A stretch of 12,235 bases of DNA. Source: Bondarzewia mesenterica (Eukaryota; Basidiomycota; Agaricomycetes; Russulales; Bondarzewiaceae). Under the pieces are notes generated by a model. That model saw only the letters and a list, made by a program, of their open reading frames with translations. It did no database searches and was not told the origin of the DNA. Numbering within the stretch: the stretch's first letter is position 1; each line of letters starts with the position of its first letter. The position numbers were made by a program, and so were the translations under genes. Positions 1 through 2,266 of the stretch are shown one piece after another. The stretch spans positions 1-12,235 of the forward strand of contig SGPL01000778.1 of the NCBI GenBank assembly GCA_004802705.1. The letters run 5' to 3'.

Positions 1-584
1 AACGTCTCCGGTCGACGTGTGCGTACTCTAACTTCAGATTTTCAGCCCTACTGCCGCTTACACATAGCACTTATTTCGCAGCGACTATGTGCCGCTCTTC
101 AATCTCTTTGGTGTATTCTTCCAGGTCCGTGACGACCTTATGAACCTCGACAACAACGAGGTAACGTTCGTTCACTTCTCATTCCTCAACTCGCGCTGAC
201 CTTGCGGTGGAATTCTCTCCAGTACGAGAAGAACAAAGGCTTCGCGGAAGACCTTACGGAGGGAAAGTTCTCCTTCCCTGTCATTCACGGGGTGTCCTCC
301 CAACAGGATAACAATATCTTGACCAGTGCGTGCGGCTGTTGCCTTCCGTTAGCCTTACCTTGTTGACTTGCCCATTCCTTCGCATAGGCATACTCCAGAA
401 ACGGCCAACGACACCGACGTTGAAACTGCATGCGATCGACCATCTTCGTCACCGGACGCATTCATTTGAGTACACGGAATCGATTCTAAACACGCTCGAA
501 ACACGAATTCGGTGTGAGATCGAAGCGCTCGGTGGGAACGACCAGTTGATTGTTCTAGTTGATATGCTCTCTGTCCGCAAGTAG
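1..584 (+). CDS. Geranylgeranyl diphosphate synthase, C-terminal part (5' end outside window)
   Basis: Soluble isoprenyl diphosphate synthase that would condense farnesyl diphosphate with isopentenyl diphosphate to give GGPP. Exons read from the sequence: 1-18, 82-160, 223-325 and 388-584. Introns are 19-81 (GTGCGT, branch CTAAC), 161-222 and 326-387, in phases 2, 0 and 1. They join into one open frame of 131 residues ending in TAG. The second Asp-rich region reads FFQVRDDLMNLDN, i.e. DDxxN rather than DDxxD, as in fungal type III GGPP synthases. It is followed by the family hallmarks NKGFAEDLTEGKFSFPVIHG and ILQKRPTTPTLK. The C-terminus (IEALGG...VDMLSVRK) matches the usual family end, so the 3' end is complete. 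The first DDxxD motif lies left of the window. It is convergent with the UbiA gene, the likely metabolic partner. The family call is firm; the chain length of the product is inferred. Confidence 0.93.
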
Positions 585-1286
585 ATATAGATTGGATTAC
601 TTGGGTCATGTAATATGTTCGGGTTTTCAAATAGAGTCTTCCTTTGAAAGCCTTTCCACACTTTCCTGGGCCGTCATTTTCCCTGAAATAAATCGAGGCG
701 TGGAACTTGGCGAACGTGCGTTGCTATCAAGAAGATAATTCCGGGAGCTGATGAAGCAGTGAACGGGCGAGGCAGTGCGCAGAGCGGTAGTGGAGCGGGT
801 AGAACGAAGTCTCGGTAGAGGAGCCAGGGGGGTAGAGAACAGAGGGCAGTATGACGACGTCAAAAAAAGTGTAGCACAGCGCTGTAAACGCGGTCATGTT
901 CGCTGACCATGCAAAACGGCCGAGTCAACAGTGTGCTTTAAAAAGAGCGCCATCACAGTGTACAAATGTGAAGTAAAAGAGAGGCAGATATCCGAAGATG
1001 AGTGAGAGCAGAGCAAGGCGAAGGCTTTTCTGTCATAGAGAGAAATATTTGAAAGAGAATCTATGACAAGGATGAACAAGGAGAGGAAAACAGTATCGCA
1101 AGGGAAAAGGAAATCGAGTGGTAAGTACTAAGTGCCGTAGGTGAAGTCAAATCCGGAACCAGAAGTGAGTAATACGGAAAAGGAAGGTGACGTGACGAAA
1201 GGGGAAATGGTAATGTAGTACAAAACCATGCTTACAAGCGGCCAGATACACTTCTATATCGTAATCGTAATCCGACGCATCAGGAT
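585..1286. other. Convergent intergenic region between GGPP synthase and UbiA genes
   Basis: About 0.7 kb between two stop codons on opposite strands. It should contain both 3' untranslated regions and poly(A) sites. Short frames on the minus strand (627-863, 894-1079) show no recognisable domain and are probably chance. The plus strand is purine-rich from about 940 to 1210. I see no RNA gene or repeat here. Confidence 0.6.
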
Positions 1287-2266
1287 TTACACCGAACCCT
1301 TCCAGCTGAGGTCTAAAGCCGAAATCAACCCGGGAGCCTTTATATCCAACCCTTCCGTCGCTGTGAACGCGAGAATAAGGCAGAAGATGTACGTGTAGAA
1401 CTGTTGACAACAACAAGATCAGCGCGACGTCGGACTAGAAAAATAGTCCAATTACTAGGAGACGAACTGACCATGTACGTCTTGTGATCGTAGCGAGAGC
1501 CGCCTGCTTGCAGGATGCGATAAGCGAGGATGATGTGCACCGCCGCAAGCGTGTAGGGAGCGAGGCGCACGATGTCTCCCATCCAGAGCACCCAATACGC
1601 TGCCGGGAGGAGCAAGAACGTGATGATGAGCCTACTTCCACGGTCACCAAAGACGAGGGGCATCGTCTTCCGCCCAACAGCAGCGTCTCCTTGGATATCT
1701 CGCAAATCCTGGATGTGCGTGATGAGACCGGCCCAAAGGGCCACGGCATAAACGTAGATCTCGCTCTTGGGGGTAGCAGGGGCGATGGCCTTCCACGACG
1801 CGCTAAGCAAGGCCCACGTCCCCGTGGTCATCGCGACGCAATTCTTGCCGAACCAGTGGCTCCCCGCGGATGTCAGACACAGGAATGCCACCGTGAGCAC
1901 CCAACAAATTGTCTCGGGCAGCAGCGAGGGCGTGTAGAGCGCAATACCCATGAAGGTCGAAAACGCGAATGCCCAACGCTGCTTGGCGCCCGAAATCGTG
2001 ACCTTTCCCGAAGGAATGGGCCTGTCCGGCTTGTTGATGCGGTCTTCGTCGACGCCGGTGATCTGGTTGGACAAGTTGAAAAAGTAGATGTAGGGAGTGA
2101 GCCAGGAGACGAGGAAGAGATAGTGGGTTATTATGGATGGAATAGGAAGGCCACGCATGGCGCCAACGGCGAAGATGGATCCAGGTATAATGGTCGTGGA
2201 CCAATCTCTCCAGGAGAATCCCAGAAAGATGTCGAGCTCGCGAATGAGGGGCGAGAAGACGGCCAT
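1287..2266 (-). CDS. UbiA-superfamily membrane prenyltransferase / terpene cyclase
   Basis: Integral membrane enzyme using an isoprenyl diphosphate, probably GGPP from the neighbouring synthase. Exon 1 is 2266-1472 (265 aa); intron 1471-1401 is 71 nt, phase 0, GTCAGT...CAACAG with a CTGAT branch site; exon 2 is 1400-1287 (37 aa, TAA). Total 302 aa. The first Asp-rich motif is NQITGVDEDRINKPDRP (residues 67-83). The second is DLRDIQGD (187-194) followed by RKTMPL. Hydrophobic stretches near 25-38, 47-64, 100-117, 120-136, 170-185, 213-229, 236-250 and 268-281 fit the multi-helix UbiA fold. The start codon has a good context (CAACATGGC), with an in-frame stop TAA upstream. A TATAATA lies only about 40 nt ahead, at 2304-2310. 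The DHKTYM motif at the end of exon 1 continues naturally into FYTYIFC of exon 2. Known relatives include fungal UbiA-type cyclases (Fma-TC, EriG) and aromatic prenyltransferases. The family is firm; the reaction (cyclisation or aromatic prenylation) is not decided by sequence alone. Confidence 0.92.

Follow-up and report, generated by a model that had tools for sequence, protein, structure and literature searches.

The window analysed here, the whole stretch of 12,235 bases from Bondarzewia mesenterica, begins with the end of a GGPP synthase (GGPPS) gene facing a UbiA-type gene, and raises the question of whether the two belong to a diterpenoid pathway of the cyathane kind, as an earlier note on this DNA had proposed. 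Hericium erinaceus likewise combines a GGPPS (EriE) with a UbiA-type cyclase (EriG) in its eri cluster, and the Cyathus olla col cluster is described as having a cyclase beside a GGPPS, P450s and SDRs (PMC11186289). The published source of erinacine P, a cyathane xyloside, is strain IHI 766 of B. mesenterica, a strain different from that of the draft genome, DSM 108281 (PRJNA521458) (PMC11044139). We infer that the genome analysed, 33.1 Mb in 844 contigs, is this DSM 108281 draft assembly. Our reading, to which we give a probability of about 0.82, is that the core of the B. mesenterica pathway to erinacine-type (cyathane) compounds is present in a second copy in the window, its reaction and product being predicted from the genes.

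Results

Gene content of the window

The gene models bear out the arrangement first described, a GGPPS C-terminus and a complete UbiA gene about 0.7 kb apart, and give a convergent pair separated by 702 bases (Table 1). The UbiA gene scored 82.6 bits for PF01040 in the Pfam profile search (E-value 3.6e-23; cut-off 34.2 bits), and both the UbiA and the GGPPS family matches are far beyond chance. Its single intron is 71 bases long; the unspliced open reading frame of 308 aa reads into this intron, and the spliced protein has 302 aa, the length given in the earlier note. A deposited 302-aa protein, EW146_g4625 [Bondarzewia mesenterica], is 99% identical to it across the initial 86% of the query, which was unspliced. 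The GGPPS is cut to its C-terminal part because the contig, C738, which is the whole window, starts at base 1. The exons seen are the last four of the eight in a gene complete on a second contig, C94, and the window frame continues without interruption to a stop of its own at 584.

No P450, SDR, UDP-glycosyltransferase, FAD oxidase or ABC transporter genes were found on the right flank of the window, and a full second cluster there was rejected: positions 2378-12235 hold zinc-finger, aspartic-protease-like and WD40 sequences with relatives on C72, C554, C598 and elsewhere. Relatives of the zinc-finger gene lie on C72 (84% over 83 residues) and C322 (45%), with a decayed one at C94:3902-4438, and it looks like a member of a dispersed family. 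Its candidacy as a cluster regulator was rejected on these relatives, that on C94 having stops and lost residues. The internal repeats of the WD40 gene resemble one another at 77-81%, and the gene has paralogues on C72, C598 and C268. Window stretches 4278-4712 and 5337-5636 gave no Pfam family at the limits used.

Table 1. Features of the window and of contig C94, with positions, strands and remarks
Feature	Position	Strand	Remarks
GGPP synthase 3' end (specialised, EriE-like)	1..584	+	exons 1-18, 82-160, 223-325, 388-584 including stop; 5' part beyond contig end
Spacer of 702 bases between two convergent genes	585..1286	.	stops tail to tail
Predicted UbiA-type diterpene cyclase gene (EriG-like), 302 aa	1287..2266	-	exon 1 2266-1472, intron 1471-1401, exon 2 1400-1287
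Cyclase gene 5' flank common to both copies	2267..2377	-	C94 identity stops abruptly at 2377
Right flank, no pathway relation as far as seen	2378..12235	.	aspartic-protease-like exons ~4278-6134; zinc-finger; WD40
C2H2 zinc-finger gene	8589-9203	-	right flank
WD40-repeat gene, runs off contig	11339-12235	-	right flank
UDP-glycosyltransferase	C94 5.1-5.8 kb		59.1 bits
P450	C94 14.5-15.1 kb		24.4 bits against cut-off 22.8; stretch with scattered N
GMC oxidase	C94 24.1-24.8 kb		Pfam
P450	C94 29.4-29.7 kb		Pfam
SDR	C94 30.8-31.2 kb		28.0 against cut-off 27
Acetyltransferase, EriL-like	C94:31947-33194		exon alone below MBOAT_2 cut-off; deposited full protein has the domain
GMC oxidase	C94 37.1-37.6 kb		Pfam
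P450	C94 40.8-41.4 kb		Pfam
ABC transporter	C94 45-49.6 kb		Pfam
SDR	C94 51.2-51.5 kb		Pfam
SDR-like piece	C94 52.4-52.9 kb		below cut-off

A near-identical locus with tailoring genes

Window positions 1-2377 aligned with C94:10015-7634 at 98.0% identity over 2,384 columns. The earlier note had expected oxygenases and transferases to the left of base 1; they were found beyond the same GGPPS on C94, and the window copy's own contig starts at base 1. Like the eri cluster, C94 carries P450s, SDRs, a UDP-glycosyltransferase, an ABC transporter, FAD oxidases and an acetyltransferase; these families were assigned by Pfam, and the acetyltransferase, 77% identical to UniProt EriL, is the sole tailoring gene compared with a single Eri protein. 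Across 382 aa the spliced model of the acetyltransferase and the deposited EW146_g4633 are 100% identical. In H. erinaceus EriL is placed outside the eri cluster (PMC12843870), whereas in Bondarzewia some 23 kb of C94 separate its relative from the cyclase gene. It is the one close match to EriL in the genome; the others are weaker, at 23-34% over 105-213 residues' worth of frame, with one 36-residue piece at 49%. On C131 (37.99-40.67 kb) an EriL-like acyltransferase (~33%) adjoins a UDP-glycosyltransferase gene, perhaps as part of another glycoside cluster.

On C94 and the window together, 20 stretches were searched for Pfam families and about 5 were without one; on C94, L021:5610-6068, L022:3382-3789, L023:5669-5956 and L025:2339-2845 gave no family at the limits used. 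Repeats that recur on many contigs are abundant in C94:1-3115. At C94:13654-16171 many scattered single N lie in a P450 gene and are followed by a 3.4-kb N gap; the scattered N might mark a collapse of two copies.

Two copies or two alleles

Between the window and C94, 47 alignment columns differ. Window 1-169 is identical, the first difference being at 170, which fits an assembler stopping where the copies become alike. The spacer (counted as 585-1289) has 17 differing columns, two of them indels. Exon 1 of the UbiA gene differs by nine synonymous and two amino-acid-changing codons, and exon 2 by two changed bases, both residue-changing against P0001; the cyclase frames are open in both copies with no frame break. 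Upstream, identity ends 111 bases before the cyclase ATG. A broken third cyclase copy at C94:53336-53982 (89% over 658 bases) tracks the C94 upstream sequence; the similarity between the two C94 copies extends about 170 bases further upstream than that with the window. When the three upstream regions were aligned, neither a terminal repeat nor a transposon was seen at the 2377 breakpoint; just upstream on C94 lies a repeat (C94:7069-7385) that also occurs at 20.9 and 43.2 kb. A 90%-identical UDP-glycosyltransferase piece with an internal stop is present on C294.

Alternatively, the fungus might be a dikaryon with a single cyathane locus, of which C94 and the window would be the two alleles, differing in structure at 2377. 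The degree of identity is within the range of alleles, and the window contig is short and ends inside the stretch common to C94. We nevertheless consider this unlikely, since the assembly holds no near-identical second copy of window 2300-12235 (best others 77-88%) or of C94:10001-16000. Likewise, no second copy of the C475 and C412 loci was found in the assembly; their single occurrence indicates that it is not generally doubled, and its total size points the same way. Furthermore, the broken third copy is evidence that copying of the segment does occur. The join at 2377 might also be chimeric. Duplication is thus favoured over haplotype, though not firmly, and the window copy would probably have arisen by duplication of a segment reaching from these 111 upstream bases through the GGPPS and past the contig end. 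The cyclase-GGPPS pair is thereby present twice, and as a broken cyclase fragment a third time, in contrast with the eri cluster.

The UbiA protein

The UbiA protein had 185 matches, and the nearest among the 120 matches listed were all fungal: Rickenella mellea (91%, 89% and 81% identity), Collybia nuda (77%), Cyathus striatus (73%), the Cyathus africanus 'diterpene cyclase' (A0A1V0QSF7; 72%) and H. erinaceus EriF (67%), together with a 174-aa Hericium alpestre protein at 81% over 52% of the query. In a tree of 46 rows (41 author-chosen from the 120 matches listed, the window protein and four paralogues from the same genome) it fell in a 17-row clade, supported at 99/99, with Cyathus, Hericium, Dentipellis and Rickenella proteins. 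This clade takes in the C. africanus protein and EriF, on which, EriG not being among the named matches, the placement leans, the role of EriF being putative. With nine distant rows dropped (37 rows), the window, Cyathus, Hericium and Dentipellis groups formed an unresolved fan.

A UbiA fold would not discriminate a cyclase from a prenyltransferase. UbiA-type terpene cyclases are described as marked by NXXX(G/A)XXXD and QDXXDXXXD, against NDXXDXXXD in prenyltransferases (PMC9835599). Both cyclase motifs are present in the window protein, as NQITGVDED (residues 67-75) and QDLRDIQGD (186-194), and the NDXXDXXXD motif of COQ2 (4-hydroxybenzoate prenyltransferase) is absent from it. Motifs and clade together bear out the earlier expectation that the protein would not group with COQ2-type enzymes. 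Both motifs also occur in a distant paralogue on C754 (L004:1390-2304; NQSMGIEED, QDFQDEPGD), which means that they mark cyclases and not specifically cyathane cyclases.

PF01040 is found at 27 places on 16 contigs of the genome. When 14 other UbiA loci were compared with 12 family queries, eight matched at 24-36% identity and six matched none of the 12. ND..D..D motifs were read by eye in genes on C241 and C517, which we take to be of COQ2 type. First motifs resembling the cyclase type, with neither G nor A at the key position, are present on C36, C445 and C230. On C442 (L028, ~11.05-13.76 kb) another UbiA gene lies beside a polyprenyl-synthase gene, with GMC-oxidase-like frames at 8.5-10.6 kb; these may be a second UbiA terpenoid cluster of a different kind.

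Judged by its motifs and relatives, the window protein is very probably the builder of the erinacine-type carbon skeleton. It could also be a UbiA-type diterpene cyclase of the EriF kind, or one forming a skeleton other than cyathane. EriF falls in the same clade, and a review joins EriG/F, the passage concerned stating cyclisation for EriG only (PMC12843870). This appears improbable, however: EriF (P0017) has NQVTSVDED as its first motif, with S in place of G/A, and may not be an active cyclase, whereas the window protein keeps the motif and is closer to the C. africanus cyclase than to EriF; furthermore, no intact UbiA other than the C94 copy was found in its cluster, and a cyathane is among the products of the species. 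Least credible, and very improbable, is an aromatic prenyltransferase (COQ2-like for ubiquinone, or meroterpenoid) lying near a GGPPS incidentally, for although the Pfam family is named after prenyltransferases, the solved relatives are archaeal, bacterial or photosynthetic prenyltransferases (best E 1.1e-9) and B. mesenterica is described as also making prenylated aromatics (PMC11044139), the window protein has the cyclase motifs and groups with named diterpene cyclases, and COQ2-like genes lie elsewhere in the genome. UbiA-type sesquiterpene cyclases (Fma-TC, Antrodia Tps1A/Tps2A) are set apart by description, their substrate being given as FPP (C15) (PMC9835599).

A specialised GGPP synthase

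A housekeeping GGPPS beside the UbiA gene would have weakened the proposal. The spliced C94 GGPPS (324 aa) is, among the matches listed, 83% identical to that of R. mellea, 79-80% to those of Dentipellis and Cyathus and 76% to that of H. alpestre. In a tree of 27 rows (26 of them author-chosen from 120 listed of 4,234 matches) the five sequences, that of Bondarzewia included, grouped together (100/95) within a specialised clade of 11 rows (100/100), and 16 housekeeping-like rows formed a separate clade (100/100). The genome has PF00348 at 16 places on seven contigs, among them a GGPPS on C475 that is 78% identical to Dentipellis P0199 and 60% to the cluster GGPPS, as measured on partial exon blocks, and is by these identities of the housekeeping-like kind. 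The GGPPS of the pair is accordingly not the single one of primary metabolism, and a dedicated GGPPS adjoins the cyclase gene, as in eri-type clusters.

Discussion

Motifs, clade, the specialised GGPPS, the gene families on C94 and the published erinacine P support a diterpene locus of the cyathane kind, with the product as a prediction. In the pathway we propose, the GGPP synthase would provide the C20 substrate, and the membrane-bound UbiA-type enzyme, holding Mg2+ with its two Asp-rich motifs, would ionise GGPP and cyclise it to a cyathane hydrocarbon (cyatha-3,12-diene in H. erinaceus), provided that either copy is expressed, as we presume. The route to erinacine P is described as passing from GGPP to cyatha-3,12-diene, followed by three hydroxylations, acetylation, xylosylation and oxidation (PMC12843870). 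Each class named for this route is represented on C94, and the later steps would come from it, with three P450s for the hydroxylations, the EriL-type acetyltransferase, the UDP-glycosyltransferase for xylosylation, FAD/GMC oxidases and the ABC transporter. This gene set fits the erinacine P isolated from the species.

The closest deposited relatives outside Bondarzewia, among the matches listed, are R. mellea proteins (P0002, P0003, P0121, P0243), with 91% and 89% identity for UbiA, 83% for GGPPS and 78-79% for the EriL-like protein; R. mellea belongs to the Hymenochaetales, Bondarzewia to the Russulales and Cyathus, again unlike Bondarzewia, to the Agaricales. A contig of 52,222 bases is given as the location of R. 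mellea UbiA, GGPPS and EriL-like proteins, whose three genes presumably lie together there; for two UbiA proteins and one EriL-like protein the contig given has 1,109,982 bases. Across orders the cluster GGPPS is 80-82% identical (Rickenella, Cyathus, Dentipellis) and the housekeeping-like GGPPS lower, at 68-75% (Rickenella, Crucibulum, Dentipellis).

Bondarzewia, Dentipellis and Hericium as one group, set by taxonomy although the first UbiA tree had been seen beforehand, was rejected by none of the single genes (p-AU 0.0902 for UbiA, 0.0742 for GGPPS, 0.0781 for EriL). With the three joined, the Dentipellis row being made of two species and the Hericium row of H. alpestre and H. erinaceus with a UbiA piece of 174 aa, the grouping was rejected (p-AU 0.0104). 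The joined test goes against simple vertical descent and does not separate transfer from paralogy. Since the vertical tree is not rejected by any gene taken singly, we do not claim horizontal transfer firmly; the pattern is also what ancient paralogy with losses would produce. Only tentatively, and with the odds somewhat against it, can it be proposed that a consolidated cyathane cluster moved between the mushroom orders of Bondarzewia and R. mellea, and that in Bondarzewia a later copying step put its core at a second site, next to a new upstream region.

As far as searched, three points are new: the second copy of the cyclase gene, whose upstream region differs, the presence of EriL inside the cluster, against outside it in H. 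erinaceus, and the closest relatives of three cluster proteins in R. mellea, of another order. Among titles of open-licence literature on Bondarzewia, cyathane or erinacine no report of a Bondarzewia cyathane cluster was found, and open-licence searches for the species name or locus tag with 'gene cluster' gave only nitrilase work; the parts of PMC10608310 that name Bondarzewia do so merely as a source of matching genes. A search of the same literature joining 'Rickenella mellea' and 'cyathane' found nothing. We know of no metabolite from R. mellea.

The analysis puts sequence to a published metabolite, erinacine P of B. mesenterica, in the form of a draft-genome cluster that fits it. C94 seems to carry every enzyme class named for the erinacine P route, acetyltransferase included, and is a compact source for pathway rebuilding. 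The second cyclase-GGPPS copy, with its other upstream region, makes it possible to test for an effect of gene dosage or of separate control. If transfer between orders is true, R. mellea should also make cyathanes, and it is now a named species in which to look for them.
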